In this document: positions 23,531-49,608 of the stretch, one piece after another
How the letters are laid out: every line of letters begins with the position of its first letter
Position numbering within the stretch: position 1 is the first letter of the stretch
Source of the DNA: an uncultured Clostridia bacterium
GTDB taxonomy: Bacteria; Bacillota; Clostridia; Christensenellales; Borkfalkiaceae
Direction: 5' to 3'
NCBI GenBank assembly: GCA_944376295.1
Contig: CALWCE010000001.1
Span: 218,586-282,585, forward strand
Length of the DNA: 64,000 nucleotides
Notes under the pieces: model-generated
Told to the model about the DNA's origin: nothing
Databases searched by the model: none
What the model saw: the letters and a program-made list of their open reading frames with translations, nothing else
Program-made: the position numbers and the translations under genes

Positions 23531-23640
23531 GAGCCGCGCATGATACGCATCGCCACGGTGTGGCGTGCGTGCGCGGCGAACTGAGGTTTTTGCCATTGTG
23601 GGCAAAAACCGTGACTGAGGCGGCGTTCCCCTTGCGCCGC
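23531..23640. repeat. Four-hairpin element, copy a
   Basis: Stem A GCCGCGCA (23532-23539) pairs with TGCGCGGC (23569-23576). Inside is hairpin B, CGCCAC-GGT-GTGGCG (23550-23564). Hairpin C is GGTTTTTGCC/GGCAAAAACC (23584-23593, 23600-23609). Hairpin D is GGCGGCG/CGCCGCC (23618-23624, 23634-23640). GTGAGC precedes stem A and GAACT follows it, as in the other copies. Confidence 0.7.
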
Positions 23641-23740
23641 CGAGACGGTGTCAGGCGAGGAAGGAGCCTGACGGAAGGGTTGTCGACCCCGCCCACTCGT
23701 GTTCCGTCGTCTTTCACCCTATTTCAGCCTCCTCTTCGGG

Positions 23741-23852
23741 GTGAGCAGACGCTTTCTTGCAAAGAGCCCGGTGGGCTTTTTGCCGTCTGCGAACTTGGAA
23801 ATGGTGCATTGTGCGCACCATTTCCTGACCGAGCGCGGTTTCTACCGCGCGA
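23741..23852. repeat. Four-hairpin element, copy b
   Basis: Stem A GCAGACG (23745-23751) with CGTCTGC (23784-23790). Hairpin B AAGAGCCC-GGT-GGGCTTTT (23762-23780). Hairpin C GGAAATGGTGC with GCACCATTTCC (23797-23807, 23815-23825). Hairpin D GCGCGGT with ACCGCGC (23833-23839, 23844-23850). Linkers GAACTTGG and TGACCGA are conserved. Confidence 0.75.
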
Positions 23853-23925
23853 GAAGGTGGCGCGCTGTCCAACATTTATGTTGGCAGCGTGACGGAGGGA
23901 GTATTCTCTTCCCCCACCTCGCCCC

Positions 23926-24372
23926 TTACAACACGCCCCGCGCGAGGAGCATCTCCTCCAAAATCGCGGCGGCGTCGTACACCAACTGCGGGCAGGGGCG
24001 CTTCTCGTAATACTCGGGCGTACGCGGCTCGGCGACGGGCTCCGTCTCGGCGGGCAGCCCCGCGTTATTCAGAAGCTCGCCGCAACGGAATGTCTTGTTT
24101 TTCTCGCGGAATTTGTAGGCGTGCTCCTGCACGAGGGCGTAGATGTCGTTCTTGGAAACGTCGGGGAAGAGCATCCCCAGACACATCGCCGCCGCCGCGA
24201 CGGTGCCGCACATCTCCCTCAGCCGCCCGATGCCGCCGCCCAACGGCCGCGACGCCGCCAGGAGCTGTTCCTTCGCGATGGGCAAAACGTCCGCAAACGC
24301 CGCCGCCACCGACTGCGCGCAGTTCATGCCGTTCAAAAAGTTGCTCTTTGCCTGTTCTGCCCGTTGAGACAT
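23926..24372 (-). CDS. C-GCAxxG-C-C family redox protein
   Basis: 148 residues from the ATG at 24372, placed by GGGAGGAT upstream. The family pattern is visible: first Cys in FLNGMNCAQSV near 21, GGGIGRLREMCGTVAAA near 52-68 and later Cys residues in FRCGELLNNAG and RPCPQLVYDAA. Proteins of this family are small, often next to redox or selenium genes in anaerobes, and have no settled function; conserved cysteines suggest metal or thiol chemistry. It lies downstream of the MBL hydrolase on the same strand after 109 bp that contain short GC-rich repeats of AGAGCCGCGCGGGCGGC. Confidence 0.8.
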   Translation of the reverse strand: MSQRAEQAKSNFLNGMNCAQSVAAAFADVLPIAKEQLLAASRPLGGGIGRLREMCGTVAAAAMCLGMLFPDVSKNDIYALVQEHAYKFREKNKTFRCGELLNNAGLPAETEPVAEPRTPEYYEKRPCPQLVYDAAAILEEMLLARGVL

Positions 24373-24481
24373 TTTATCCTCCCGTGCCGCCCGCGCGGCT
24401 CTTGATTTTGACCACACCCGCGGCTCTAATTTTTCGCCAGCCGCCCGCGCGGCTCTTATTATTTCCCGCCCGAACGGCGGT

Positions 24482-25267
24482 TCAGACCTCGTACCACTCG
24501 CCCGTCTTCGGCACCCACGCCCGCATGGCAGGGTTGAACGCCTTCACCGAAGGCACAAATTTTCCCATCTTCATCTCATGGGTGAGGGGCGGAAAGGCGT
24601 CGTCGAAGTGATCCGCCATCACCGCCTCGGGGCGGAAGCGCCGCAAAAAGCGCCTCATGTAGCGATGCATCCCCGCCCGCCCCTGATAGGGAAAGACGAG
24701 AAGATCGGCGCCCGTCGGGTACTCCGTGTTCTTGTCCATGCCCGCCGAGCCCAGCACCACAACGCGCTTCCCGCCGCCCGAAATTTCGAGGGCGAAGATG
24801 TCGTCCTTGATCTTCCACTTCTTGGTCTGCCTGAGCAGAGCGACGGCGTCCTTTGCGCGAAGATAGGTGCGGGGAGAAAAGAGGACGGAGAGCACCGTCC
24901 AAAGGTCGAACCTGCAATGCCTGCTCCGATGGGCGCGCACGGTCATCTCCCCCACGCGGAACACGTCTCCCGCCGCAAGAGGGTGCATCGCCTCGGCACG
25001 AATGCCCTGCGCCGCCGCATGACGGATGCCGTTTTCGGAGACGTACACCCTGCCGATACCCGCCTCCAAAAACGCGCCGATATCCGCAAAGTGGTCGAGG
25101 TGCGGATGCGTGATGAAGACGGCGTCCGCCGCGGAGAGCTCCCGAAGGGGCAGCGGCGCGCCGTCCCTTTGATATTGTCTGAGGTACGGGTCGATGAGGA
25201 TGCGTGTTTCGCCGCACGCGAGCATCAACGTCGCCGTGCCGTACCATGCGATCTTCATGCCGTTCAT
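24482..25267 (-). CDS. MBL-fold metal-dependent hydrolase
   Basis: 261 residues with a metallo-beta-lactamase fold: ILIDPYLRQY, the metal motif THPHLDHFAD near 56-65, VLGSAGMD near 175 and MADHFDDAFPP near 218. It resembles UlaG-like or NAPE-PLD-like phospho(di)esterases; the substrate cannot be told. The ATG at 25267 is 6 nt after a TACAAT box with an ideal TTGACA upstream and has no Shine-Dalgarno, so I choose it over the frame's earlier Met and predict a leaderless message. A second in-frame ATG lies 9 nt later. Confidence 0.85.
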   Translation of the reverse strand: MNGMKIAWYGTATLMLACGETRILIDPYLRQYQRDGAPLPLRELSAADAVFITHPHLDHFADIGAFLEAGIGRVYVSENGIRHAAAQGIRAEAMHPLAAGDVFRVGEMTVRAHRSRHCRFDLWTVLSVLFSPRTYLRAKDAVALLRQTKKWKIKDDIFALEISGGGKRVVVLGSAGMDKNTEYPTGADLLVFPYQGRAGMHRYMRRFLRRFRPEAVMADHFDDAFPPLTHEMKMGKFVPSVKAFNPAMRAWVPKTGEWYEV

Positions 25268-25273
25268 AAGATG

Positions 25274-25302
25274 ATTGTAACAAATGCGCCCCACGATGTC
25301 AA
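25274..25302 (-). promoter_or_regulatory. Consensus promoter giving a probable leaderless mRNA for the MBL hydrolase
   Basis: On the minus strand TTGACA (25302-25297), a 17-nt spacer and TACAAT (25279-25274). The ATG begins at 25267, so the first transcribed base is near the A of the start codon. Confidence 0.8.
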
Positions 25303-25313
25303 CAACTTTGCAT

Positions 25314-25340
25314 AAAAAAAGAGAGCCCTTTCGGACTCTC
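25314..25340 (-). terminator. Terminator of the beta-helix lipoprotein gene
   Basis: An 8-bp stem (25321-25328 with 25333-25340, one G-U pair in RNA) is followed on the minus strand by seven T residues, 20 nt after the stop codon. Confidence 0.85.
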
Positions 25341-25359
25341 TCTTGTGTTTTTTGAGACG

Positions 25360-27771
25360 TTATGCCTCAGGCTGGGTCGAGGGCTCTTCAACCGGACTAA
25401 CTTCCTTTCCGTTGATGGTGACCGCGCCCGAATCTTTCCCGATCACGATATCTGCATTAGAAATTCCCGTTTCTTCCCTGTAATTGAGCGTCGTTTCATA
25501 TTCTGCCGCAGTCGTGTCCACAGTGCCGTCGTAGACATAGATCTTAGGCACAGCGGAATCCTTCGCAATTTCAAACTTGATTACGCCGCTGAGCGTGCAA
25601 GTTGCGTCGGCATAGTATGTGCCGTTACGATTTCCGACGACGAGCGCCGCCTGAGGAGCCTGATTGCCTGATCCCCAATCTTCCTCCAAACGTATAATCT
25701 CGTTCTTAGAATATGCTTTCGTCGTACCAAGCGTCGAGTCTGTAATAGTTCCTGTCCCTGCACGGAGGAATACAGCTTGATCAACTGCTTTAATAGTACT
25801 GCCGCTCACCTCTAATTCTCCGGCCACATTCAGCATGATCCCTACAGCGCCTTGTTCATAAGTAGCAGTAATATCCGAGTCTTTCACAACAATATGCACG
25901 TTAGCAAATTGATTCACACCCTCTGAAACCGTGGCATTCGTACCGATTCCATAACTGCCCGAAGTGTTAATTGTGCTTTTGCCCTCAACCGTGACAGTCG
26001 CACAAGTCTCTTCATTATACTTCGTGCTGCCGTCGCCCATAACGAAAATTGCAGTCCCGTCTGCCGTATAATTTACCGATTTCAGCGTCAGCGAAGTCTT
26101 CGCGCCGCTGACTTGGATATTGGAAAATGCAAGTTTTGCATTACCCGCTTGCTTGCCGATGAGATCTCCGTTCTGAATTATGACCTGCGCTCCTCCGCTG
26201 ATACTATTGGTTGATTTATTAGATTCGTCGGAATACAATGTGAGCTGCTTCCCGCCGAGATCGAGCGTGATGTTCTTGTTGAACGTCAGCGCTTCCGTCA
26301 TCGTGACATCGGCGTTAAGCGTCACTTTGGAGGCTCCCAGGGCAAGGGCTGTCATGAGTTCGTCCTGCGTCGCTGCCTCAACCTCAAAGCCCGAAGGCAC
26401 TTCCCCGTCGATCTTCCATTCCGTTGCAGAGATATTTGCACAGTCCTCATTCGTGAAATTCCCCGCACCGGAGATCATCGCATATAGGGAATCGACGGTA
26501 AACGCTTCTTCTGCGTACTCACACTTACTGAACTCAACGGAAGTAGCTGCAAGGGCTGTATCCATCGTCATATCTTCAGAGAACTTACAGTTCGTCAGCA
26601 CGGTTTCACTGTAAGGGCGGAAGTGTGCATAGGTATTGGAATACGTCTCCTTTCCAAAGGTGCAGTTCGTGAAAGTTGCCTTACCGCCCTCACCGAGGCT
26701 ATAACTTGTCCAACCATTAAGAGCAGTATCCTCCACCGTCAGCGTAACGCCATCCCCGCCGTTCACATTAATCGGATAAACGGCATCCAGGACACAATTT
26801 CGAATGGTCACTGAATCTGCCGCCGTAACGTAAACCGCACGGAAAGAACCGGAGAAATTGCAATCTTCAATCACAACGTTGGAGGCTTTATTCTCGACAA
26901 GTACATGGCCGGTATATGTATCGGCAGGGCCTTCGGTAAACGTGCAATCACTGATCTTCACGTTATCTCCCGTGACATTGATCGTATAGTCCGCATCAGG
27001 ATCACCCGTAAACTGAATGCCCGTAAACGTGACATTATTGGAAGAAACCGTATAGCCGGAGGGCAAATCGATTTTCGTTTCTCCCGTGCCAACAAGCGTA
27101 AAACCTTCGGGAAGCGTGACATCCGTCAAATTATACTCCCCTGCCGCGAGCGAAACCATACCGTTTTCACCCGCCGTCTCAATAGCTTCCTTCAAAGATT
27201 CCTGATCGTCCGCCTGACCGACATTGGAATCGCCAAGAGAAGTAACAACGACCCACGCTGCGTCCTTATAATACCAAATCGAATTATTAGCAGAACAGAG
27301 ATACATATCGCCTTCCTGGAGAGACACATCACTGTCAAAGACGTGGGCCGAAGGAACATCACTGCCATAGAACCAAAGGGAGCCGCGGTCGCCGTCGGCG
27401 CCGGGGGTACCGGAGGGACCCTGAGGACCGCTCGCGCCGTCCTGGCCATCCTTACCGTCCTCGCCGTCCTGACCCTCGGCTTTGACGTCCGTCACTTCCC
27501 CGTTGATAACCCAATAGCCGTCCTCGTTGATGGTGATGCTCGGCGTCGTACCGGGCGTACCGGCTTCGCCCTGCTCGCCCTGTTCGCCCTTTTCCCCCTG
27601 CTCACCCTGCGGACCGCGCAAGGATTCGAGCCATTCTTCCTCCGTTCCGACAAACCCGTGCTCGACGGCGATGTCGTATGCGGACTTGACCGCCTCCCCG
27701 CACGCTGCAAGCGGCAGAGCCATGGCGGCTGCAAGGCCAAGTACGGCAACGGCCTTGACTAACTTCTTCAT
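25360..27771 (-). CDS. Collagen-like and right-handed beta-helix surface lipoprotein
   Basis: 803 residues from the ATG at 27771, with GGAGG 11 nt upstream. The signal peptide MKKLVKAVAVLGLAAAM... ends in PLAAC (lipidated Cys near 24). Then come an AYDIAVEHGFVGTEEEWLES module, a collagen-like run of GPQGEQGEKGEQG type, a short domain, a second collagen-like run (GQDGEDGKDGQDG) and about 550 residues of right-handed beta-helix repeats (VTFTGIQFTG, VKISDCTFTEG, VVIEDCNFSG, VTIRNCVLD), as in pectate-lyase-like adhesins. No lyase catalytic residues are evident, so it is more likely an adhesin or structural surface protein. Its promoter has a G8 tract. Confidence 0.85.
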   Translation of the reverse strand: MKKLVKAVAVLGLAAAMALPLAACGEAVKSAYDIAVEHGFVGTEEEWLESLRGPQGEQGEKGEQGEQGEAGTPGTTPSITINEDGYWVINGEVTDVKAEGQDGEDGKDGQDGASGPQGPSGTPGADGDRGSLWFYGSDVPSAHVFDSDVSLQEGDMYLCSANNSIWYYKDAAWVVVTSLGDSNVGQADDQESLKEAIETAGENGMVSLAAGEYNLTDVTLPEGFTLVGTGETKIDLPSGYTVSSNNVTFTGIQFTGDPDADYTINVTGDNVKISDCTFTEGPADTYTGHVLVENKASNVVIEDCNFSGSFRAVYVTAADSVTIRNCVLDAVYPINVNGGDGVTLTVEDTALNGWTSYSLGEGGKATFTNCTFGKETYSNTYAHFRPYSETVLTNCKFSEDMTMDTALAATSVEFSKCEYAEEAFTVDSLYAMISGAGNFTNEDCANISATEWKIDGEVPSGFEVEAATQDELMTALALGASKVTLNADVTMTEALTFNKNITLDLGGKQLTLYSDESNKSTNSISGGAQVIIQNGDLIGKQAGNAKLAFSNIQVSGAKTSLTLKSVNYTADGTAIFVMGDGSTKYNEETCATVTVEGKSTINTSGSYGIGTNATVSEGVNQFANVHIVVKDSDITATYEQGAVGIMLNVAGELEVSGSTIKAVDQAVFLRAGTGTITDSTLGTTKAYSKNEIIRLEEDWGSGNQAPQAALVVGNRNGTYYADATCTLSGVIKFEIAKDSAVPKIYVYDGTVDTTAAEYETTLNYREETGISNADIVIGKDSGAVTINGKEVSPVEEPSTQPEA

Positions 27772-27807
27772 AACAACATATTCCTCCTTTTTAATAAGAT
27801 TAACTCC

Positions 27808-27834
27808 ATTATAGCCCCCCCCTGGGTTTGTCAA
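27808..27834 (-). promoter_or_regulatory. Promoter of the beta-helix lipoprotein with a G8 tract in a 15-nt spacer
   Basis: On the minus strand TTGACA (27834-27829) and TATAAT (27813-27808) are both perfect but only 15 nt apart, and eight of the spacer bases are an unbroken G run (27822-27815). The rest of the gap 27772-28148 holds an AT-rich patch near 27860 and a GC-rich hairpin near 28088-28126, with no gene seen. Confidence 0.7.
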
Positions 27835-28087
27835 GAGGGAAATGAAAAAATGTAGAATTATACATATAATTTTTTCTCCGCATAACGGCCTGCCTGTTTG
27901 CGGTACTCTGTTCACCTCACCCCCGTGCGGCCAAAAAGACGTTCGTGCGCAGGTTCGCCGATGAAGCACCTCGACCGCGGCGCAGCGCCCCTTCCCCGAT
28001 CACCGCTTCCCAATAACCCGCCCGAAAAAAACGGCGCCGCGCGGCGGCGGGGCGCACTTTTTATGCAAAGTGCGGCTTATGCAAAGT

Positions 28088-28126
28088 GCGGCGGCGCCGC
28101 AGGCAAGAAGCCTGCGGCGCCGCCGC
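28088..28126 (-). terminator. GC-rich hairpin after the ferritin-like gene
   Basis: A 17-bp near-perfect stem (28088-28104 with 28110-28126) lies 22 nt after the stop. No T tract follows on the minus strand; instead GCACTTTGCATAA occurs twice next to it. It is probably a terminator or transcript-end stabiliser. Confidence 0.5.
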
Positions 28127-28148
28127 GTCAGATGTTTTCTTTCGCGGT

Positions 28149-29393
28149 TTACTTTACTCTTCCCACATCGATATTATCCTTCGTGCGGTCGGAAAGTTCT
28201 TTGATGGGGTGCTCCTTGTCCTGCCACCGCCTGTCCTCCCCCCACTCGCGGATGGCGCGCTCGATGACCTCGTGCGTGCCCGCCGCCTCGGGCTTTCCGC
28301 CGTGGACGCGCGCGTTGTAGGAAAAGAAGCGGAAAGAGTCGGGCAGTTTTTCAAGCTCCTCCCAGCCCTCTTCAACGGCGGTGAGGCGCACGCTCTTCAA
28401 CACCTCGCGGATATACGCCTTCTGCGAGCGGAACTTCAAAAGCTCGGGGAACTCCCCGCCCGAAGGGAAGAGCTGCTGCCACACCTTGCCCTCGTAGGCG
28501 CGCAGAAGCTCCGCCGCCTCGTGAAGATGCGCCACTTCCTCTTCAAAGTGCATCTCCCAGACGCCCTTGATGCGCTCGTCCGTCTCGTCCTCATAGCAGG
28601 AATAATAGAGATAGCACTCGGTGTACTCGTTCATGAGCAAATTCTCAAAGGGCGTCATGCAGGGGTCTTTGAGGCACCCGTACCCCGTGACGTGCTGTTC
28701 CTCGATCATGGCGATCTCGTTGAAGAGCTTCCTCCCGAGCGGCGTCGTATACAAATTCGCGACGTTCATATAGAAGTTCATCGTCTGCTGTTCCGCCGCC
28801 GTAATAATATTGACGGCGAGCTTGGTCTTGAGATCGCTCAGATACCCGTTGAGATAGAAGTTGACGTCGTCGAAGGGATGACGGTACTCCGCGACGGTGG
28901 GGCGGCCGGGCATGATCTCGGTATAATCGCCCACGAGGCGGGCGGGATCGCCGCACTTTTCCAGCTCCATAAGATCGGCATAGCGATAAAGATGATCGAA
29001 GTCTTCGAGGAGGGCGAAGTCGAGCTGCTTTTTCACATAGCTGTTCTTCTCGTTCACGGCAAGATTGGCGGTGAGGTCGACGGCGAGCTGTTCATACCCG
29101 ATGGTATGCTCCAAAATACCCTCGTCGGCGGGCTTCAACCCCGCGACGCGCTTTTGCTGCAACTGTTCCCCGCGCCGAAGGAGGGCGAGACGGCGCCTTA
29201 CGTCGTTGTTGGCGCACATCCGCGTAAAGGAATGCTGCAGCCGCACCGATTCGAACTCCGTGCCCGACATCAGGATGATGCGGGTGCGCGTGTAGGGGTC
29301 GACTTCGTTCTTGTTGTAGGGCTTCAGAAACACCTTGTTCCACGAGGTGAACACCTTATCCATCTTTTGCGGTTTCAGAGAAAACGGATCCAT
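28149..29393 (-). CDS. Ferritin-like fold protein, function unknown
   Basis: 414 residues from the ATG at 29393, with GGAG 7 nt upstream. I do not recognise a named family. The sequence is mostly helical and contains two ExxH-type pairs typical of diiron four-helix bundles: EIAMIEEQHVTGYG near 240 and MHFEEEVAHLHEAAELL near 290, plus helices FALLEDFDHLYRYADLMELE and NEYTECYLYYSCYED that could supply the partner Glu residues. This suggests a ferritin-like or rubrerythrin-like metal centre for oxygen or peroxide handling in an anaerobe. The N-terminal 60 residues (MDPFSLKPQKMDKVFTSW) are unlike ferritins. It is divergent from mtnN. Confidence 0.65.
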   Translation of the reverse strand: MDPFSLKPQKMDKVFTSWNKVFLKPYNKNEVDPYTRTRIILMSGTEFESVRLQHSFTRMCANNDVRRRLALLRRGEQLQQKRVAGLKPADEGILEHTIGYEQLAVDLTANLAVNEKNSYVKKQLDFALLEDFDHLYRYADLMELEKCGDPARLVGDYTEIMPGRPTVAEYRHPFDDVNFYLNGYLSDLKTKLAVNIITAAEQQTMNFYMNVANLYTTPLGRKLFNEIAMIEEQHVTGYGCLKDPCMTPFENLLMNEYTECYLYYSCYEDETDERIKGVWEMHFEEEVAHLHEAAELLRAYEGKVWQQLFPSGGEFPELLKFRSQKAYIREVLKSVRLTAVEEGWEELEKLPDSFRFFSYNARVHGGKPEAAGTHEVIERAIREWGEDRRWQDKEHPIKELSDRTKDNIDVGRVK

Positions 29394-29527
29394 AAACACA
29401 CTCCAAAAAAGTTTTTTGGGGCGCGGAAGAGCCCGCCGTGCAGAAGGTAACCTTGCCGCGCGGCCTGCCGTCGGCCGCCCCATACCCTCTTGATTTTACG
29501 CGACTTAGCGAAAAAGCATACGCCCCC

Positions 29528-29556
29528 TTGCATTTTTTCCCGAAACCTGTTATACT
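29528..29556 (+). promoter_or_regulatory. Promoter of mtnN
   Basis: TTGCAT (29528-29533), a 17-nt spacer and TATACT (29551-29556). The leader of about 58 nt contains a GC hairpin and ends in AAAGGAGC. On the other strand a TTGACA-15-TATAAC pair overlaps it and may serve the divergent ferritin-like gene. Confidence 0.65.
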
Positions 29557-29620
29557 GAGAAAAAAATATTGTCAACGGCCCGCGGGCGCCCCTTTTGCCG
29601 CGCGGGAAAAAGGAGCAAGT

Positions 29621-30277
29621 ATGATCGGAGCAGTCGTCGCATTGGAAGGCGAAGCGGAAGCCCTCCTCTCGCAGATGGAGATCGAAGATATCCGCACCAT
29701 TTACGGCAAGACCGTGCACCTCGGCAGGGCGTTCGGGAAGGAGTGCCTTCTCGTCGTATGCGGCGTGGGCAAAGTGAACGCCGCCGCAGGGACGTGTGCC
29801 GCCATCCACTTCGGCGCGGACGTCATTTTGAATTTCGGCGTCGCGGGAGGGCTTCACGAGCGGACGGAACTCACCGAGGTGTACCTTATCGAGAAAGCCG
29901 TGCAGTACGACTTCGACATCACCCAGCTCGAAGGAACTGAGATCGGCACCCTCGACGGCGAGACGGAAAACTTCCTTCCCCTGTCTACGCCCAACGGCAT
30001 CGACTTCCCCCGCCGAAAGCTTGCGACGGGCGACAGGTTCAACGACTCCCCCGTCGATCACGACCTTCTCCTCCGCTTAGGCGCGGACCTTCGCGACATG
30101 GAGGGCGGCGCCATCGTGGAAGTGTGCAAGTACGCGGGCGTGCCCTGCGTCTCCTTCAAGGCGGTCTCGGACGTGTACGGCTCGGGCAGCACGACGGAGC
30201 AGTACCAAAAAAACCTCTCCCGCGCCTGCCTCAATCTCAAAGCGTATATGGGCGAGGTGTTCGCCGCCCTCGACTGA
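29621..30277 (+). CDS. mtnN: 5'-methylthioadenosine/S-adenosylhomocysteine nucleosidase
   Basis: 218 residues. It cleaves adenine from MTA and SAH. Catalytic features are visible: the Glu in VVALEGEAEALL near 9-12, GVGKVNAAAGT near 48, the nucleoside-binding DMEGGAIVEVC near 163-173 and the acid Asp in AVSDVYGSGS near 187. It is followed by luxS, so the two enzymes make the consecutive SAH to S-ribosylhomocysteine to homocysteine steps. The ATG has AAAGGAGC upstream. Confidence 0.93.
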   Translation: MIGAVVALEGEAEALLSQMEIEDIRTIYGKTVHLGRAFGKECLLVVCGVGKVNAAAGTCAAIHFGADVILNFGVAGGLHERTELTEVYLIEKAVQYDFDITQLEGTEIGTLDGETENFLPLSTPNGIDFPRRKLATGDRFNDSPVDHDLLLRLGADLRDMEGGAIVEVCKYAGVPCVSFKAVSDVYGSGSTTEQYQKNLSRACLNLKAYMGEVFAALD

Positions 30278-30312
30278 ACGCGGCTGCGCCCGCACGGACG
30301 CGGCGGCAGATG

Positions 30313-30367
30313 TTATTTCGGCATAAATCGAAATAGAACGTCCGTATTATTTCGAAATTCATCGAAA
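30313..30367 (+). promoter_or_regulatory. Tandem TTATTTCG-N6-ATCGAAA operator-like sites before luxS
   Basis: The 21-nt pattern TTATTTCG-N6-ATCGAAA occurs at 30313-30333 and again at 30347-30367, 34 nt apart. Each copy is itself an inverted repeat (TTTCG-N8-CGAAA). They fill the gap between mtnN and luxS and end 13 nt before the luxS start, so a bound repressor would block transcription or translation. The regulator is unknown. Confidence 0.5.
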
Positions 30368-30380
30368 CAAGGAGCATTTT

Positions 30381-30821
30381 ATGGAAAAGATCGCCTCCTT
30401 CCAAAAGGATCACGATAAACTGCAGCCCGGGCTGTATGCGCAGACGGACAAAAACCTGATCACGACCTTCGATCTGCGCTTCAAGAAGCCCAACGCGGGC
30501 GACTATATCACGCCGAAAGCGCTGCACACGATCGAGCATCTTCTTGCGACCGTTCTCCGCAACAGCGAAAAGAAGGACGACATCGTCTACTTCGGCCCGA
30601 TGGGCTGCCGCACGGGGTTCTATCTCCTCACCCTGCGCCTTTCCTTTGAGGAAGTGCTCGCCCTTCTCCAAGAGAGCATAAAGACGGCGCTTGCGCTCGA
30701 AGAAGTGCCGGGCAGCAAGCGCGAGGAATGCGGCAACTATCTCGAACACGACCTTGCCGCCGCGAAGGAAGAGCTCAGAAACTATCTTCTCATCCTCGAC
30801 GACGTGGAGGCGCACTCATGA
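30381..30821 (+). CDS. luxS: S-ribosylhomocysteine lyase
   Basis: 146 residues, slightly shorter than B. subtilis LuxS (157). The metal ligands are in place: HTIEHLL near 49-55 gives two His, and ECGNYLEHD near 115 gives the Cys; the catalytic Cys is in GPMGCRTGFYL near 73. It splits S-ribosylhomocysteine to homocysteine and DPD, the precursor of autoinducer 2. It follows mtnN and overlaps ung by 4 nt (ATGA). AAGGAGC precedes the start. Confidence 0.95.
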   Translation: MEKIASFQKDHDKLQPGLYAQTDKNLITTFDLRFKKPNAGDYITPKALHTIEHLLATVLRNSEKKDDIVYFGPMGCRTGFYLLTLRLSFEEVLALLQESIKTALALEEVPGSKREECGNYLEHDLAAAKEELRNYLLILDDVEAHS

Positions 30822-31486
30822 TCGACCTCGGCGATTGGAAGCAGCCGCTCGCTCCCCTCTTCGCGGATGAGCGCTATCAAAAGATCCGCGAATTTTTGAA
30901 GTACGAATATTCACACTATACCGTCTACCCCGATATGTACGACCTTTATAACTGCTTCCGCTTCACGCCCTTTGCAAGCGTTAAGGCGGTGCTGCTGGGG
31001 CAGGATCCCTACCACGAGCCGGGGCAGGCGCACGGGCTGTGCTTTTCGGTGAAGGAGGGCGTCAAAAAACCGCCGTCGCTCGAAAATATCTTCAAGGAGC
31101 TCAAAAGCGACTTAGGCTTCGACGCACCCAAGTCGGGCGATCTCACCAAGTGGGCGCACGAGGGCGTGCTCCTCATGAACACGGCGCTCACCGTGCGCGA
31201 ACACCAGGCGAACTCCCACGCAAACTGCGGCTGGAGCTGGTTTACGGACAGCGTCATCCAAATTTTAAGCAAGGAGAAGGAACATCTCGTCTTTCTGCTT
31301 TGGGGCGGCAACGCCCGCCGCAAGAAGGCGCTCATCGATACGAAGAAACACCTCGTCCTCGAATGCGCGCACCCCTCGCCCCTCTCCGCCTACAACGGCT
31401 TTTTCGGATGCAGGCATTTTTCCAAGACCAACGCCTATCTCGAATCGCATGCCATCCCCCCCATCGACTGGGATCTGAACAGTTAA
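30818..31486 (+). CDS. ung: Uracil-DNA glycosylase (family 1)
   Basis: 222 residues with all family-1 UNG motifs: water-activating LLGQDPYHEPGQAHG near 58-72, LLMNTALTV near 112, the Ser/Thr-rich W-G-F region WSWFTD and the minor-groove loop HPSPLSAYNGFFGCRHF near 185. It removes uracil from DNA to start base-excision repair. The start overlaps the luxS stop, with GGAGG inside the luxS end. The link of luxS to ung is probably only transcriptional. Confidence 0.95.
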   Translation: MIDLGDWKQPLAPLFADERYQKIREFLKYEYSHYTVYPDMYDLYNCFRFTPFASVKAVLLGQDPYHEPGQAHGLCFSVKEGVKKPPSLENIFKELKSDLGFDAPKSGDLTKWAHEGVLLMNTALTVREHQANSHANCGWSWFTDSVIQILSKEKEHLVFLLWGGNARRKKALIDTKKHLVLECAHPSPLSAYNGFFGCRHFSKTNAYLESHAIPPIDWDLNS

Positions 31487-32032
31487 TTAAAAAGACTCCT
31501 CATTTTAGGCTCCCCCTGAATCCCCAAAAAAAGACGAAGTATTTTTTTGGGTGGGTTTGGGGGCAAGCAAATGCTTTCTTGGTTTATAAAATTCTTCATT
31601 TTAGCCTCCTCTTCGGGGAGGTGGAACGGCATCCGAAGCTCGCTTCGGTGCCGTGACGGAGGGAGTAAGCCCTATTCCCTTGCCTACCGCGTCGAAGCAA
31701 GCATTCTTTCCCCCTTGCCTCCCCATGTCCCCAAAAAAAGACGAAGTATTATTTTGGGTTGGTTTGAGGGGCGAGCAAATGCTTTCTTGATTTGTAAAAT
31801 TCCTTATTGTAGGCGCCTCCTTGGGGGAGCTGTCCTGTTGTCCGGCGAACGTCGGCAACAGGACTGAGGGAGTAAAAGCCCGCCCCGTAAAAAAGACGCG
31901 GCCCCTCACTCATCTCTTCGACAACTTAATATAAGCCACAGTATCCTTGGGGCTGTTATGAAGTTGAGCGCCGAAGCGCCCGCCGCAAATTGCGGCGGGC
32001 GCTTCGGCATTTATCAAAACGGGAAAGGACAC
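31487..32032. repeat. Intergenic repeat island 5
   Basis: No gene. It contains an A7/T7 hairpin (31522-31551), a GAGGGAGT-type repeat (about 31600-31667), a second A7 hairpin with an interrupted T run (31729-31755), another GAGGGAGT-type repeat (about 31808-31874) and a strong hairpin at 31970-32008. The phrase CAAATGCTTTCTTG follows each A7/T7 hairpin. Confidence 0.7.
31970..32008. terminator. Strong hairpin after the GNAT gene
   Basis: A perfect 17-bp stem (31970-31986 with 31992-32008) around AAATT. It lies 24 nt after the stop of the minus-strand GNAT gene. No T run follows on that strand; ATTTATC follows on the plus strand. Confidence 0.55.
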
Positions 32033-32416
32033 TCACTCACCTTTTTCGATCACAAACGACTGCAAGCTCTTTGTGCAGCCATTGCGCTCGTAAAAACCGA
32101 CCGCATCCTCCTGCGCACCAAAATATAACATTGTCGGTGTTAACTTCTTTGCAAGGGCTAAAAGCCTGCTCCCGATCCCGCGTCTCTGATACTGCGGAAG
32201 AACGAGTAATTCCGTGATCGTTCCGAAGAAATACCCATCGGAGAGAATACGAAGGCAGCCGACCAACCGCTCCCCGTCGTATGCCGTAATGTTCTGTGTT
32301 TTATCCAGGGCAGCTTGTGTCTTGACCGGATCATATTCGGCGTGCCAGAGTTGAGATGCAAATTCCGAAAACCGCTCTGCCGTTAGAGTACTGTCTTTCT
32401 CTATGTAGCGGATCAT
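32033..32416 (-). CDS. GNAT-family N-acetyltransferase
   Basis: 127 residues from the ATG at 32416, placed by GGGAGGA upstream. The acetyl-CoA-binding motif A is LLVLPQYQRRGIGSRLLALA near 77-96, with GFYERNGC near 113 as the usual last strand. It acetylates an amine on an unknown substrate. It is downstream of tuf on the same strand but separated by the tuf terminator. Confidence 0.88.
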   Translation of the reverse strand: MIRYIEKDSTLTAERFSEFASQLWHAEYDPVKTQAALDKTQNITAYDGERLVGCLRILSDGYFFGTITELLVLPQYQRRGIGSRLLALAKKLTPTMLYFGAQEDAVGFYERNGCTKSLQSFVIEKGE

Positions 32417-41102: not shown

Positions 41103-41136
41103 GCCGCGCGGCGCGCCCAAAGGCGCGCCGCGCGGC
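41103..41136 (-). terminator. Hairpin after the topoisomerase A-subunit gene
   Basis: A perfect 15-bp GC stem (41103-41117 with 41122-41136) around CAAA, 20 nt after the stop on the minus strand. Confidence 0.65.
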
Positions 41137-41155
41137 ATTCCATTTATCCCTTTTC

Positions 41156-43577
41156 TTACTCCCCTTTCAGGTACTTCGCGGCATAGACGGCGCTCAATGA
41201 CGCATACGCCTTATTGACGCGCCCGCGCGTCCCCGTGGCGTCGATGGGCACGTCCTCGGTGGAAATGGCAACAAGACCCTCCTCCAACGCAAGCCCCAGC
41301 ATGTAGGGAATGGTGACGTAACTTGCAAACAGCACCTCTTCGCCCTCTTTTAAAACGGCGATCTGGATGCCCTTCCGGTATCTCGGCAGCGGGTCGACCT
41401 GCGCCACGATGATGCGCTTGATCCTCCCGCCCGTGATGGCGACGACCACTTCGCCCTCGCCGTCGATCTGCGCGGCAAAGACGACTTCGTCCCCCTCGTT
41501 GAGGTTGATGCCCTTGACGCCGCCCGCGATGCGCCCCTGCGAAGGGATATCGTCCTTTCTCGCATTCAGGCACATGCCGCATTTTGTCACGAAGAAGATG
41601 GTCTCCTCCTTGTCCTCCGTGTCCGTCTCGACGCCGATGACGCGGTCGTCCTCGTTGAGGCGGATGGCCTGGAAGACGGGCTTGCCCACATTGTATTCGC
41701 TCCACGCCGTGCGCTTGATCATGCCGCGCTCCGTATAGAAGAGCGCGTCGCCCTCTTTGGTATCGGCGGGGAAGAGCGCCACGGGAAGCTCGCCCTCCTG
41801 AGCGTCCTCGAAGAGATCGGCAAGCGAATATCCTGCTTCCGTGAAGCGGCAGGCGGCCTGTTCGGGGCGCAGGCGGTAGCAGTTGCCGCGGTCGGAGAAC
41901 ACCCACACGTCGCAGTCGGACATGATGGAGAGCGTCGTCTTCATGATGTTGTTGGGCTTGGTCTTCGCGCCGAGCTCCTTGTTGGACTGCGAGAAGTTCT
42001 TCTCGGTCACGCATTTGAGCATGCCGTCGTAGGAGATACAGAGCAAGCTCTCCACGCCGGGCGCGCGCACGTCGGCGCGCACGGGACCCGCGTCTTCAAG
42101 CGTCTCCACGAGCACCGAGCGGCGGGGGGAGGGATACTTCTTCTTGATCTCTAAGATCTCTTCCTTGACGACTTCGAGCTGCCGCTGCTTGCTGCCCACG
42201 ATGGCGGTGAGCTTCTTGATGAGTTCCTTGAGCTGTTTCAACTCCTCCTCGAGCTTGAAGACTTCGAGCTTGGTGAGCCGCGCGAGGCGCAGATCGAGGA
42301 TGGCCTGCGCCTGCCGTTCGGAAAGTTCGAAGCGCTTCCTCAGTTTGTCGCGCGCGTCGGACGTCGAATCGGCGTTCTTGATGATTTGGATGACCTCGTC
42401 GATGTTGCGCACGGCGATGATGAGGCCTTCCAGGATATGGCAGCGCTCCTTCGCCTGGTTGAGATCGAACTTCGTGCGGCGCAGCACGACTTCGCGCTGA
42501 TATTCGACGTAATAGCGGATGATCTCCGATAGCCCCATGAGCATGGGCTTGCCGCCCGCGATGGCGACCATGTTGATGCCGAACGTCGTCTCAAGGTCGG
42601 TATATTTATAGAGGAGCTTCATCACGGCGTCCACGTCGCAGTCGCCTTTGAGTTCGACGACGGCGCGCATGCCCACGCGGTCGGACTCGTCCCTCACGCC
42701 CGTGATGGCGGCAAACTCCTCCTTCTTCTCCTCGCGGAGCTCCGCAATGCGGCGGAGAAGATTGGCTTTGTTCACCTGATAGGGAAGTTCGCTGATGACG
42801 AGGAGCTTCCGATCTCCCTCGCCCGCCTCCATGCGCGTCTTGGCGCGGAGCGTTATTTTCCCCTTGCCCGTCTTGTACGCCTCGTTGAGTTCGCCCCGCA
42901 CGATATAGCCGCCCGTGGGGAAATCGGGCGCGGGGAGCTTCTTCATGAGCTCATCGAGCTTGATCGTAGGCTTGTCGATATACGCGACGACGGCGTCGAT
43001 GCTCTCTCCCAAATTATGGGGCGGGATGTTGGTCGCAAGCCCCACGGCGATGCCAGCCGCCCCGTTGACGAGAAGGTTGGGGAAGCGCCCGGGGAGCATA
43101 TCGGGCTCCTTCAGGGAATCGTCGAAGTTGAGCGAGAAGGGCACGGTCTCTTTATAGAGATCGCGCAAAAGTTCGAGGGCGATGGGCTCCAGCCGCGCCT
43201 CGGTATAACGCATGGCGGCGGCGGGGTCGCCGTCCACCGAGCCGAAGTTGCCGTGACCGTTGACGAGCGTGCGCCCCATATTGAAGTCCTGCGCCATGCG
43301 CACCATGGCGTCGTAGACCGAGCTGTCGCCGTGCGGGTGGTACTTGCCCATACAGTCGCCGACGATGCGCGCCGACTTCTTGTGCGGCTTATCGGGCAGC
43401 AGCCCCATCTCGAACATGGTATAGAGGATGCGCCGCTGCACGGGCTTCAAGCCGTCCTCGACGCGGGGAAGCGCTCTGTCCATGATGACGAACTCCGCAT
43501 ACGGGAGCATCGCCGAAGGGAGCACTTCCTCAAGCGGCGTTACGAACAGGCTGCCCTGCGGCTCTTCCACCTTTTTC

Positions 43578-43591
<14 letters not shown>
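41156..43591 (-). CDS. parC: Type IIA topoisomerase subunit A (topoisomerase IV ParC-like)
   Basis: 811 residues. The catalytic Tyr is in [11 protein letters not shown] near 130; the quinolone region [12 protein letters not shown] has the susceptible-type Ser and Asp. The coiled-coil region and beta-pinwheel C-terminal domain follow. The GyrA-box (QRRGGRG-like) is missing; [17 protein letters not shown] lies at that place, which fits a decatenating topoisomerase IV rather than gyrase. The start overlaps the B-subunit stop by 14 nt. I cannot see whether another gyrAB pair exists, so a divergent gyrase is not excluded. Confidence 0.85.
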
Positions 43592-45626
<2,035 letters not shown>

Positions 45627-45704
45627 ACGTTCCTCTGTCTCCCTTTCCCGCGAAAAACGCGCTCCGCAGCCAAAAGGGCATAATATCTCTATATTATCAT
45701 ATCC

Positions 45705-45733
45705 ATTATACCATATCTTGTTGTTCGGGGCAA
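45705..45733 (-). promoter_or_regulatory. parE-parC promoter
   Basis: On the minus strand TTGCCC (45733-45728), a 17-nt spacer and TATAAT (45710-45705), about 80 nt before the parE start. Confidence 0.65.
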
Positions 45734-45776
45734 CCGATTTCCACAATTTTTGCAAAAAAGCCAAAAAGCGCGCAAG

Positions 45777-45799
45777 CAAAAACGCCGCTTTCGCGGCGT
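45777..45799 (-). terminator. Terminator of the HAD phosphatase gene
   Basis: A 7-bp stem ACGCCGC/GCGGCGT (45782-45788, 45793-45799) with a run of five T residues on the minus strand. Confidence 0.75.
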
Positions 45800-45815
45800 C
45801 TCAGAGCAAGATAAC

Positions 45816-46493
45816 TCACATCTTCCCGATGAGCTCCAGCGCCTCATCGTAACTTTGGGCGCAGAGTCCCTTGTATCCTTCGGGCGCGCCATGCGGGCGG
45901 TAGAGGATAAAGTCGATCCCGAGAGAAGCGGCGCAGGGAGCGTCCGAGGTGAGGCTGTCCCCCACCCACACGGCGCGGCTGCGCTCGTACCCCTCGATAT
46001 GCGCCTCGACATACGCCGCATACTCCTTCGAGGGCTTGTTGATGCCGATCGCTTCGGAGATGAACGCTCCGTCCGCATACGCCCCCAGCCCGGAGGCGGC
46101 GATGCGGCGCGTCTGCGTAAATTGCGCCCCGTTCGTAACGAGGAAGATGCGCCCCTTATTTTTCAGCGCCTTCACGAACGCTTCCGCCCCCTCGTAGAAT
46201 TTCCCGCCCGAGGCGAGCTCGTAAAAATACTCCTTCGAAAATTCCTCGGGGGAGTCCGCCCGCCCGTATTCGCGGAGGAATACTTCGAAGCGTTCGACAA
46301 CCAGCCGCGCCCGCGCGATCTCGCCCCGTTCGAGCTTCTTCCAATAGCTCTCGTTGATGGCGTGATAGCGCGCGAGCATGTCCTCGTTCGGCTCGACGCC
46401 CCGCTTCTTCAGGGTGCGCCAAAGCGCCTCCCGCTCCTCCCGCGGAAAATCAAACAGCGTCTCATCGATATCCAGCAAAAAGATGTCTTTCAT
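45816..46493 (-). CDS. HAD-family phosphatase, YjjG-like nucleotidase
   Basis: 225 residues. HAD motifs: nucleophile loop LLDIDETLFDF near 6-16, motif II LVTNGAQFTQ near 117, motif III Lys in GINKPSKEYA near 150 and motif IV VWVGDSLTSDAPCA near 175. A helical cap lies between motifs I and II. The pattern resembles YjjG-type pyrimidine nucleotidases; another small phosphate ester is possible. TAGAAT ends 6 nt before the ATG and no ribosome binding site exists, so the message may be leaderless, although no -35 box is clear. Confidence 0.85.
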   Translation of the reverse strand: MKDIFLLDIDETLFDFPREEREALWRTLKKRGVEPNEDMLARYHAINESYWKKLERGEIARARLVVERFEVFLREYGRADSPEEFSKEYFYELASGGKFYEGAEAFVKALKNKGRIFLVTNGAQFTQTRRIAASGLGAYADGAFISEAIGINKPSKEYAAYVEAHIEGYERSRAVWVGDSLTSDAPCAASLGIDFILYRPHGAPEGYKGLCAQSYDEALELIGKM

Positions 46494-46522
46494 AGGTTTA
46501 TTCTACCCCACTACCTCCTCCC

Positions 46523-46640
46523 CACGGAGGAGATGCAAGCAAGACGAGGAGAGCGAGGAAAACCCGAAGGAGCTTACTTAGAGGTAAGTGACTGAGGGTT
46601 GCCAAAGCTCGACAAAGTATTGCGACGCATATCCTCCGTG
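46523..46640. repeat. Multi-stem GACGAGG element, copy 2
   Basis: Same architecture as 4289-4407. The outer stem pairs CACGGAGGA (46523-46531) with TCCTCCGTG (46632-46640), then ATGC 46533-46536 with GCAT 46627-46630. GAGC 46551-46554 pairs with GCTC 46607-46610, AACCC 46561-46565 with GGGTT 46596-46600, and CTTAC 46573-46577 with GTAAG 46584-46588. It lies between the HAD gene start and the HelD stop. Confidence 0.75.
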
Positions 46641-46650
46641 CGTACGGTCG

Positions 46651-49005
46651 TCAGATGACAATCGCCAGCTCCCGCAGGGCGCGGGTATAAGCAATATACT
46701 TCTCGTTTTCGGTCATGCCGCGGTCCAGAACGGCGACGGCGGAAAATTCCAGTCCCTTGCTCTCGAAGACGGTCATCACGTTGATGCGCGTCTTGGAAGC
46801 GCCCTGCGCCGAGAGCCGCCCGAACCCGCGCTTTTCAAAGAGCGGCAGGTCTTCCTCTCGCACGATGACGGCTTTCAAACCCTGTTTTCCGCGGAACCAC
46901 GCTGCAACGCGCTTCAAGGGGATGCGCTCCACCTCCGCGCCCGTCATGCCGATGGGCTGCATCTTCACGCCCAGCTCCCCCGCGACAAAGCTCACGATCT
47001 CATTCGTGTTGCGGTAGTTGACGTCGAGCTCGAAGTAATTTTCAAACGGCTCCCACTGCGTCAGCCCCCTCCACGGCGTGATGTTCTGTTTGAGATCGCC
47101 GAACACGTTGAAGGCGGCGTCCGAATGGATGGCGCGAAGGAGCGCATATTCGGAGGGCGAGATATCCTGCCCCTCGTCGATGAAGACGAGCCCGTAGCGG
47201 GGCGTTAAGTTCCTGCCCGCCCGAGAGAGCGCGCTGCACAGCGCATAGGCGTCCGAAGGGTACACGCCCGCGAGCGAAAAGCGCTTTTTATACTTTTTGA
47301 CGGTATGGCGGTACAGCCAGCGCGAGACGTCGAGTGTCCCCTCGCACTTCCCGAGCTCCGCGCACGCCCCGAAGAGGCGGATGACGGCGAAGAACTCCCC
47401 GAAGAGATCGACGCCCTCCTTCATCTCCCCGATGACGTCCGCGATGCGGCCGGCTTCTGCAAAGAGCTCCTCGCGCGCCGCGATGCGGTCGGCATAACTG
47501 TAATATTCGCCGTCGGGTCCCTTCTGGCGGTAGCGCTTCAAATCGGCGATCTCCTTTTCGATGCTCTCTTTGAGGGAAGCGAGATCGTCCTCGGCGCGGG
47601 AAAAGACGGCATTCGCGTGCGCGGAGAAGTCCTTCGCGCAGCGGTAAAATTCTGCAAATTGGCGGAAGAAATAGTCGGGCGTGCGCTCCCCTTCCGTGAG
47701 GACGAAGGATAAAAAGTCCTGCACCTGGGAGAGCGAACTCATCAGCCCGCGCATGGGCTTGGTAAAGTAGAAGCCCCCTTCCTTGTTCTCCTTCATCTCG
47801 CCGAGGACGGTACGGCGGATGCGCACGGAGGCGTTCTTGACGCGCACATACAGCTCGTGGCGGCGCTTGCACGAGGCAAACACTTCCTCGGCGACCGAGC
47901 GGCACTCCCTGCCCGTAAACAGCCCGAAGATATCGCCGTAGAGCTTTCCGATGTCCTTTTCAAGCTCCTTCGGGAAGGCGTCCGAATACAGCCAAGAAAG
48001 GTATTCCTTGCTCTCCGCCCCGCCCGAACATTTGAGCTCGATGCCCTCGTTCTTCAAGACCTGCAAGTAGTAATTCCGCAGGGTGATGGTGCGCACCTTC
48101 TTGAGTTCGAGCACTTTGGAGAGCTCGTCGATGAAGGCGTTAAAGGAATCGGATGGCGTGATGACGAGCACGTCGCGCGGGCGCAGGCTCTCGTTGTTAT
48201 ACATGAGATAGCTCAGGCGATGCAGAAGGATCATCGTCTTGCCGCTGCCCGCGCAGCCCTGCAAAACAAAGCTCTCGCGCTCGGGGCGGGTGATGATCTC
48301 AAACTGCTTTTCCTGGATGGTCTCGATGATGTCGCGGACGGTGAAATCGTCCTTCCTGTCCTTTAAGATGCTGCGAAGGTAGGGATCGAACAAGATCTCC
48401 TCGTCTCGCCCCGCGATCTCTTCGGGCGTGAGGTGATCGCGCACGGAGAGATATTCGTTGCGGAAGGAGAGGATGCGCCCGTTCTTGACGGAGAGCGCCC
48501 GCCGCAGCACGGTGCGGTATTCGTACTCGTTGATGGTAAAGCTGACGCGCGATTTTTGGTAGTACCGCACGGCAAGGGGAGCGCGCCAGTCGACGATCTC
48601 CAGATTGACATCCCCCTTCTTGCCGATATAATAGCTGTTGTAGCCCTCCTTGTCGTCCACGACGTCGATGCGCGCAAAGTAAGGCTCGACGAAATAGCAC
48701 TTATACGAATCGATCTTCTTCTCCACTTCCTGCTTTTCCGCCTGCTTTTCGAGGAGTTCGCGGTACTCGCCCGCCGAATACCCCTCCCGGGCGCGCAGCC
48801 CCTCCATCTCCGCCTCGATCTCGCGGACGCGGCGCTGAAGGCGGGAGAGATAATAAAAGCGGAGCATGCGCAAAACGGCGTCGAGGTGCTCTTTCTCATA
48901 GCAAAGCTGCCCTTCCTCGTCGAGGAGAGCCAGATACCATGCCTTATCCGCATCCCGCTTGGGATCGAGCATTTGTTTGAGCTTTTCGATCGTTTCCTGT
49001 TTCAT
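46651..49005 (-). CDS. helD: HelD-like superfamily 1 helicase (RNA polymerase recycling factor type)
   Basis: 784 residues. The N-terminal 130 residues form a charged coiled coil that in HelD enters the RNA polymerase secondary channel (RRVREIEAEMEG, KQAEKQEVEKK). The HelD signature YYIGKKGDVNLEIVDWRAP precedes Walker A VLQGCAGSGKTMILLHRLSYL near 243-263. Motif II VFIDEGQDISP near 620 and a C-terminal motif block (FESKGLEFSAVAV, YIAYTRALRELAIV) complete the ATPase. HelD removes stalled RNA polymerase from DNA using ATP. It is monocistronic between repeat elements. A generic UvrD-like DNA helicase is less likely because of the N-terminus. Confidence 0.85.
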   Translation of the reverse strand: MKQETIEKLKQMLDPKRDADKAWYLALLDEEGQLCYEKEHLDAVLRMLRFYYLSRLQRRVREIEAEMEGLRAREGYSAGEYRELLEKQAEKQEVEKKIDSYKCYFVEPYFARIDVVDDKEGYNSYYIGKKGDVNLEIVDWRAPLAVRYYQKSRVSFTINEYEYRTVLRRALSVKNGRILSFRNEYLSVRDHLTPEEIAGRDEEILFDPYLRSILKDRKDDFTVRDIIETIQEKQFEIITRPERESFVLQGCAGSGKTMILLHRLSYLMYNNESLRPRDVLVITPSDSFNAFIDELSKVLELKKVRTITLRNYYLQVLKNEGIELKCSGGAESKEYLSWLYSDAFPKELEKDIGKLYGDIFGLFTGRECRSVAEEVFASCKRRHELYVRVKNASVRIRRTVLGEMKENKEGGFYFTKPMRGLMSSLSQVQDFLSFVLTEGERTPDYFFRQFAEFYRCAKDFSAHANAVFSRAEDDLASLKESIEKEIADLKRYRQKGPDGEYYSYADRIAAREELFAEAGRIADVIGEMKEGVDLFGEFFAVIRLFGACAELGKCEGTLDVSRWLYRHTVKKYKKRFSLAGVYPSDAYALCSALSRAGRNLTPRYGLVFIDEGQDISPSEYALLRAIHSDAAFNVFGDLKQNITPWRGLTQWEPFENYFELDVNYRNTNEIVSFVAGELGVKMQPIGMTGAEVERIPLKRVAAWFRGKQGLKAVIVREEDLPLFEKRGFGRLSAQGASKTRINVMTVFESKGLEFSAVAVLDRGMTENEKYIAYTRALRELAIVI

Positions 49006-49242
49006 AAAGACGGAGAGAGTCTCCTCATTTTAGCCCCCCGGGGTCCCCAAAAAAAGACGAAGTATTTTTTTGGGGTGAGTTTGAGGGGCGAGCAAATGCT
49101 TCCTGAATTTGACTAAATTCCCTATTTTAGGCTCCTCTACGGGGAGCTGTCGCGGCATCCGAAGCTTGCTTCGGTGCCGTGACTGAGGGAGTAATAGGGT
49201 TCCCGCAAAGATTTTGCGCAGCAAAAGATTTGTGGGAAGAGG

Positions 49243-49353
49243 GTGAGCAGGCGCATTCTTGCGAAGAGCCCGGTGGGCTCTTTGCCGCCTGCGAACTTGT
49301 AAATTTCCCATAGTGGGGAAATTTCCTGACCGAGCGCAGGCTCTACTGCGCGA
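49243..49353. repeat. Four-hairpin element, copy c
   Basis: Stem A GCAGGCG (49247-49253) with CGCCTGC (49286-49292). Hairpin B AAGAGCCC-GGT-GGGCTCTT (49264-49282). Hairpin C AAATTTCCC with GGGAAATTT (49301-49309, 49316-49324). Hairpin D GCGCAG with CTGCGC (49334-49339, 49346-49351). Confidence 0.75.
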
Positions 49354-49496
49354 GACGAGCGAGCATCTAAGCAAAGCCGCGAGAATAACGAGCGGCTTGC
49401 AAAATTTGCTCCGCTGCGACGAGGGCTCCCACAAAAATCGCATCAGCGATCCAGGGCTCCCGCAAAAGTCGCGCAGCGAGTTTTGTGGGAAGAGGG

Positions 49497-49608
49497 TGAG
49501 CAAGTGCTTTCTTGGCAACGCCACGGTGTGGCGTTGACCACTTGCGAACTTGGAAATGGCACATAGTGCGTGCCATTTCCTGACCGAAGCGCGGGCTCTA
49601 CCGCGCGA
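49497..49608. repeat. Four-hairpin element, copy d
   Basis: Stem A GCAAGTG (49500-49506) with CACTTGC (49539-49545). Hairpin B AACGCCAC-GGT-GTGGCGTT (49517-49535). Hairpin C GGAAATGGCAC with GTGCCATTTCC (49552-49562, 49570-49580). Hairpin D GCGCGG with CCGCGC (49589-49594, 49601-49606). Confidence 0.75.

Follow-up and report, generated by a model that had tools for sequence, protein, structure and literature searches.

A stretch of 64,000 nucleotides from the genome of an uncultured Clostridia bacterium (here called the window) carries several copies of a unit whose hairpins keep their order while their stem sequences differ. This raised the question of what kind of element the unit, here termed E1, represents, and which strand adopts the fold. 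As detailed below, E1 is a real, lineage-restricted and structure-defined repeat of one gut Clostridia lineage, and it is very probably a mobile element recognized by its structure.

Copies and fold of E1 in the window

The window belongs to a genome of 2.03 Mb in 30 contigs (G000), and its sister genome is referred to as G001. E1 is non-coding and 112 to 116 nt long. All five copies listed in a preliminary description of this DNA, four full and one partial, are present; the boundaries of the full copies set by our covariance models of E1, R1 and R2, lie within a few bases of those given there (Table 1). Copy 1 represents a divergent subfamily, E1b, with relatives at L016 (two copies), L015 and L026 as well as at L071 of G001. 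The window also encodes, on the minus strand, a BspA-type leucine-rich repeat protein of 932 aa (17009-19807) and a protein of 869 aa with collagen repeats (25360-27969), both perhaps surface proteins.

Table 1. E1 copies, parts of copy 2 and host repeats in the window
Feature	Position	Strand	Basis or remark
E1 copy 1, divergent subfamily E1b	23530..23645	+	R1 57.9 bits, R2 89.1 bits
E1 copy 2	23742..23854	+	R1 135.8 bits; predicted fold -60.3 kcal/mol
Copy 2, stem A	23745-23751/23784-23790	+	
Copy 2, bulge	23752-23758	+	
Copy 2, stem B (loop GGT)	23759-23769/23773-23783	+	
Copy 2, hairpin C	23797-23807/23815-23825	+	
Copy 2, linker TGACCGA	23826-23832	+	
Copy 2, hairpin D	23833-23838/23845-23850	+	
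Copy 2, GAGA end	23851-23854	+	
E1 copy 3	49244..49355	+	R1 122.4 bits; alignment with L063
E1 copy 4	49497..49610	+	R1 129.4 bits; alignment with L063:2015-2127
Partial E1 (3′ remnant of A/B, hairpins C and D)	4101..4189	+	R1 72.1 bits; most of A/B missing
Host repeat E3 of copy 2, left part GCCTCCTCTTCGGGG	23727..23741	+	empty counterpart CCTCCTCTTCGGGGAGGTGGCGCGCTGT
Host repeat E3 of copy 2, right part AGGTGGCGCG...GACGGAGGGAGT	23855..23902	+	empty counterparts, sequence
Host repeat E2 of copy 4, left hairpin AGGGCTCCCGC...GTGGGAAGAGGG	49453..49496	+	similarity to other E2 hosts

Four hairpins, A to D, had been proposed. Because A and B form one two-part hairpin, in which the 7 bp of stem A and the 11 bp of stem B are separated by a 5′-side bulge of 7 nt (5 nt in copy 1), E1 consists of three: A/B, C and D. 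The linkers had been taken as fixed, but copy 1 instead carries GAACTGAGG and GTGACTGAGG. Similarly, the GGT triloop of B, described as constant, is found in the four full window copies but varies among 42 diverse relatives, in which the second G is kept in 35 and the T in 39, and the first G in less than 80%. Minimum-energy folds of ten members ranged from -49 to -64 kcal/mol and contained the A/B hairpin in all ten cases; in those of L245, G242 and G407, hairpin C or D deviates from the model.

Covariation, probable hairpin exchange and the folded strand

Covariation was examined in progressively more diverse sets of copies. The first comprised 31 copies from G000 and G001 and one of G027; three divergent copies of the 34 first aligned were omitted, among them window copy 1, which entered the later sets. 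In this set, 98.3% of the pair cells were paired, compared with 84.5% after shuffling, and 21 of 35 pairs changed on both sides. Among 68 matches (65 distinct) from more species, the values were 96.9% and 67.6%, with changes on both sides at 34 of 35 pairs, and among 45 family-wide matches (44 distinct), 94.5% and 54.8%. The covariation thus grows with the diversity of the copies and does not vanish, which supports the selection on structure that had been proposed from the window alone. A tree-based null was applied to 42 rows (the 45-match set less two partial rows and one identical row, from sources picked for diversity; median identity of 52%), and 24 of the 35 pairs covaried at an E value of <0.05; this was a simplified test of our own design, similar to R-scape, for which the alignment had been fitted to the model, and it assumes a single tree, an assumption violated by hairpin exchange between copies. 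Only 1 of 5636 other column pairs covaried, namely columns 1 and 62, which close the tandem G.A at the foot of stem A from outside. Conservation at ≥80% was found in 21 of 39 unpaired and 4 of 69 paired columns. Wobbles occupied 92 of 3834 cells (2.4%) in 111 distinct copies, compared with 47 of 585 bracketed pairs (8.0%) in 28 tRNAs of the fetched loci, a rough comparison because ARAGORN brackets standard pairs only. At 23.4-23.9 kb of the window, E1 is not more conserved than its surroundings and the spacers are equally conserved, so no special constraint on E1 is visible there.

Orthologous sites pointed to an additional source of covariation. Orthologous blocks of more than 740 bp in G000 and G001 are 88-98% identical, and copy 4 is identical to its G001 orthologue except for the inner part of hairpin C, where three pairs differ on both arms and the loop region shows one substitution, along with one 1-nt gap. 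As each of the two C alleles is also found in other copies, the difference is most simply read as a single exchange. In total, five G000/G001 locus pairs were read: L061 and L063 show a clear change, L071 shows none, L060/L030 shows a change within a poor alignment, and L059/L022 is ambiguous. At one G001/G000 site, both genomes have the same D hairpin, and the part next to it is E1 in one genome and an E2 hairpin in the other, the rest being poorly aligned. Across the 31 copies, hairpin alleles were combined nearly at random for A-D, B-C, B-D and C-D (p values of 0.40-0.69), with some association for A-B (p = 0.0085) and A-C (p = 0.047), although the power of this test is limited by the many rare alleles. 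The two arms of one hairpin, by contrast with shuffled data, were linked, the mutual information being 1.97 (A), 2.09 (B) and 2.78 (C), against shuffled values of 0.79, 1.2 and 1.75, respectively. Part of the within-genus covariation therefore probably stems from exchange of hairpin alleles between copies and need not all be base-by-base compensation; the deep divergence of the subfamilies is not explained by such exchange alone.

These observations bear on the possibility that covariation reflects mutation and not selection, with template switching copying one arm of a hairpin from the other and moving hairpins between similar repeats; stems would then be perfect without a function, because one arm is copied from the other. 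Columns 7-46 fit this expectation, with 16 GC, 15 AT and zero GT or AC intermediates, as do the rarity of wobbles, the two-armed difference in the inner hairpin C of otherwise identical orthologues, the almost random combination of B, C and D alleles, and the differences that the neighboring repeats E2 and E3 also display at orthologous sites. However, intermediates do occur at other pairs (8 GT at 23-37 and 4 GT at 20-40), and template switching leaves unexplained why unpaired bases are conserved, why the pair closing the tandem G.A covaries, and why insertion follows GG with a constant GAGA end. We regard this explanation as improbable.

The foot of the terminal hairpins was informative with respect to the folded strand. 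Among the 135 rows of the alignment, a large number of which are near-identical, stem A starts at its base with TGA/GAA in 62, CGA/GAG in 9 and GGA/GAC in 2, and 47 other rows have the Watson-Crick combination GAA/TTC. The pair closing the GA/GA foot is standard in all 74 rows that carry it (T-A in 62, C-G in 9, G-C in 2 and the wobble T-G in 1). This foot recurs at hairpin D, as CGA...GAG, in 113 of the 135 rows, so that the hairpins at the left (A/B) and right (D) ends commonly share the foot N-GA...GA-N. Since the tandem G.A and its covarying closing pair are meaningful on the plus strand only, folding of one strand is favored over a cruciform. The excess of G.T over A.C cells (38/13, 92/52 and 24/17 over the 35 pairs, the last becoming 24/7 once two often-unpaired pairs are dropped) is weak and also points to folding of the plus strand. 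Of the two forms originally envisaged, RNA or a DNA cruciform, the folded structure as such holds, and a two-strand cruciform fits worse than single-strand folding. The GC skew of the flanks gave no consistent preference for a replication strand, being positive on the element strand at 7 of 30 sites in G000, 3 of 17 in G001 and 9 of 11 in G018.

Distribution, insertion sites and hosts

Of the 103 genomes searched from the host genus, at least 57 matched R1. Whenever a search covered more than 40 genomes, 36 or 9 candidates were scored in each, and the counts are lower bounds. With R2, ten genomes of the genus yielded 10 to 47 matches each. Among the matches listed, at least 14 of 396 genomes sampled from the order carried E1, all of its own family and in three genera, and at least 2 of 391 genomes sampled from the class, both of its own genus. 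E1 is also present in a record of Candidatus Gallimonas gallistercoris (L114). A pattern scan of genome contigs returned 60 stretches, 24 of which were given to R2; 11 were recovered, all of them from MAGs labelled Clostridia or Gallimonas, and 13 were not, including stretches from Exiguobacterium, Kocuria, a Coriobacteriaceae MAG and a rumen Clostridia MAG. A blastn search of plasmid and phage collections with copy 3 gave no match; in viral contigs, one pattern hit two stretches, which R2 did not recover, and another pattern hit none. Several contigs of G117, such as C83, C31 and C102, end inside E1; assembly is probably interrupted by the repeat, and the true copy numbers may be higher than those counted.

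In agreement with the initial impression that E1 has no named family, neither the gathering score nor an E value of ≤1 gave an Rfam match at E1 in the window and in the loci of 20 relatives; one weak Rfam match ends on the last base of an E1 copy. Literature searches returned nothing recognized as E1, and those with E3 host strings no bacterial-repeat paper among the matches listed. At L083, a cobalamin riboswitch (RF00174, above the gathering score; 1638-1805, minus strand) adjoins an E1 copy.

As judged by comparison of sequences, E1 is mobile, since sites with and without it correspond exactly and identical copies lie in hosts of different kinds, and the suspicion of an undescribed structured or mobile repeat proved well founded. 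Near-identical copies recur within species; in G117, 11 copies (query included) are identical over 112 nt and sit in several kinds of E3 host. Copy 3, together with the halves of its E2 host, is present in G000 and absent at the orthologous G001 site, and one G001 copy is missing from the matching E3 of the window near 31.6 kb. The empty counterpart CCTCCTCTTCGGGGAGGTGGCGCGCTGT was matched for L071, the G001 orthologue with the same flanks as copy 2. Some of the other E2 hosts have empty counterparts (GAAGAGG^AG), and copy 4 itself had no empty counterpart matched.

For the insertion site, the 135 rows were reduced to 132 distinct flank pairs by dropping two rows that lie close to the end of a locus and one whose flanks occur repeatedly. 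G occupies position -2 in 131 and position -1 in 121 of these, and E1 ends in GAGA in 127, AAGA in 4 and GGGA in 1. E1 thus lies after GG and, in its usual hosts, next to AG (GG^AG), inside other hairpin repeats. Patterns of the joined flanks, compared with the fetched loci at the boundaries of the model, with one mismatch allowed per side and the junction bases free, were matched for 57 of the 132 pairs; two of these are junctions within the tandem array of L084, which leaves 55 empty matches. No target duplication was seen at these 55 insertions. Many filled sites nevertheless differ from the empty match by the loss or change of one to three bases at the junction, so the E1 boundaries are not clean to the base. 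The start of E1 (TGAG or GAAA) and its end (GAGA) are not inverted repeats. A/B begins 0-3 nt from the left boundary and D stops 4 nt before the right one; the three bases before D in the 135 rows are CGA (114), GAA (10), TGA (6) or others (5), and those before A are TGA, GAA, CGA, GAG, GGA and single others.

The hosts are E3 hairpins (CTCCCC-loop-GGGG^AG), E2 repeats, tRNA-Thr and, in L086, a hairpin loop. E3 (window 23646-23682, 23855-23902 and other intergenic sites; L188-L227) consists of CTCCCC-loop-GGGGAG followed by a second, variable hairpin and ends, for example, in GACGGAGGGAGT or GACTGAGGGG; its hairpins also vary between orthologous sites. E2 (window 49453-49496 with 49611-49680; L028, L032) has the form AGGGCTCCCGC...GTGGGAAGAGGAG..., and elsewhere it was found within E1, where it replaces the linker between hairpins C and D. 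tRNA-derived sequence surrounds E1 at L084 and L326-L331, and L084/L326 holds three E1-like copies in tandem. Of six fetched loci where E1 lies in tRNA-like sequence, five have a tRNA-Thr or tRNA-Arg gene nearby that is intact; at the sixth, L329, no intact tRNA gene was found and the contig ends shortly past E1.

Candidate mechanism and known systems

Our preferred reading, held with moderate confidence, is that E1 is a small non-autonomous mobile element recognized by the folded shape of its plus strand. A putative enzyme would read the terminal hairpins A/B and D formed in single-stranded DNA and, by analogy with HUH/Y1 single-strand transposition, would cut and rejoin at the ends of E1. 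Such a helper need not be a known Y1 enzyme, and that an HUH-type enzyme moves E1 is possible but rather doubtful.

IS200/IS605 and REP/RAYT elements insert without target duplication, and E1, like them, inserts 3′ of a fixed short sequence without one. E1 shares with both groups hairpins at or near both ends and many intergenic copies (further papers on these systems are PMC3116915 and PMC2817692); for IS200/IS605 and REP/RAYT (REPIN) elements, a short motif at the foot of the terminal hairpins is reported in PMC6006769. The same paper describes a guide tetranucleotide 5′ of the hairpin foot of IS200/IS605 that interacts with a terminal tetranucleotide, and a rare Y1 class, mainly of Planctomycetes, Acidobacteria and Proteobacteria, with a CnGA foot that resembles the CCGA or CTGA before hairpin D of E1. 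Against our reading, the hairpin at the left end of E1 stands so close to the target that a classical guide has no room there. GTAG repeats, too, comprise subfamilies whose stems carry alternative complementary residues (PMC3733652). Unlike REP/RAYT, E1 is a unit of three hairpins of about 113 nt inserted after GG inside other repeats, it carries the foot N-GA...GA-N and not the REP tag GTAG/GTGG or CGTC, and 8 of 13 copy-rich genomes have no Y1 match. E1 appears to work like the single-strand hairpin elements, without the REP tag and mostly without their enzyme.

The search for a helper covered several enzyme families. Y1 genes were found in 25 of the 103 genus genomes, without a positive association with E1 (11 of 57 E1-positive versus 14 of 46 E1-negative genomes; G034, negative by R1, nevertheless has weak R2 matches), and a Y1 transposase as a resident helper was rejected on this ground. 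No Y1 match was obtained in 46 of the 57 E1-positive genomes and in 8 of the 13 copy-rich genomes, which are MAGs of 71-98% completeness, so that gene loss is possible as the genomes are incomplete. Reverse transcriptase RVT_1 (PF00078) was detected in only 3 of the 13, and a group II intron or other retroelement was dismissed because 10 lack it. The TnpB zinc-ribbon (PF07282) was found in 0 of 13 and the IS110 transposase (PF01548) in 1 of 13, which led us to discard a TnpB-associated guide RNA and an IS110 bridge RNA, respectively. As the tested families are missing from most of the copy-rich genomes, some other enzyme is pointed to. The IS200-like Y1 genes of G000 (L036, L037 and L038) have end hairpins unlike E1, and two of them lie within near-identical stretches of about 746 nt.

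The distribution of Y1 genes also bears on a view of E1 as an ordinary MITE, left over from an IS200/IS605 or REP system after most genomes had lost the transposase gene. The lack of target duplication, the terminal hairpins and the CnGA-like foot agree with it, as does the presence of Y1 genes in 25 of 103 genus genomes. We nevertheless consider it unlikely, since the three Y1 loci read by eye, all from G000 and out of 34 Y1 matches in the genus, have other ends and none like those of E1, Y1 is not positively associated with E1, and identical copies occur in G117, which gave no Y1 match at 96% completeness.

Alternatively, E1 might be a functional RNA (a binding site, processing signal or ribozyme-like fold) dispersed through its usefulness or by RNA copied back into DNA. 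The plus-strand polarity of the covariation, the conserved single-stranded bases, the copies in tRNA-derived sequence beside intact tRNA genes and, in L330, the position of E1 behind an apparent promoter (by eye) are consistent with this idea. On the other hand, wobbles are rare (2.4% of E1 cells versus, roughly, 8.0% of tRNA pairs), RVT_1 is missing from 10 of the 13 copy-rich genomes, and insertion is site-specific, into non-coding hairpin repeats, and this origin appears quite improbable to us.

Mobile DNA recognized by its fold, as we prefer to read E1, has further parallels. Cyanobacterial small dispersed repeats are very small and are placed precisely inside other repeats and structured genes; as far as their general description goes, they resemble E1 in this precise nesting. 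The pneumococcal BOX, RUP and SPRITE elements are, like E1, small structured non-autonomous repeats, BOX being modular, and BOX and RUP are stated in PMC3049150 to have terminal inverted repeats and to produce target duplications. E1, unlike these two, has neither, and a classical MITE, including BOX/RUP, was accordingly rejected. E1 is filed under the known kind of small structured non-autonomous repeats. Only tentatively do we propose that it is the founding example of a novel class of transposable elements, whose information would reside in a small number of single-stranded bases, kept in place by three freely changing and traded hairpins, and which would be moved between structured hosts, namely hairpin repeats and tRNA-derived sequence, by a recombinase of an undescribed kind. 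As a natural and well-sampled mobile DNA defined by structure and not by sequence (nearly all pairs are kept at a median identity of 52%), E1 opens two questions to testing, namely by what means the hairpin repeats of bacteria move and whether one arm of a hairpin is copied from the other. In seven copies from G099 and G111 (L310-L316), hairpins C and D are separated by an extra hairpin module, which is about 55 nt long, begins with CCCCGC or TCCCGC and ends with GAAGTA.
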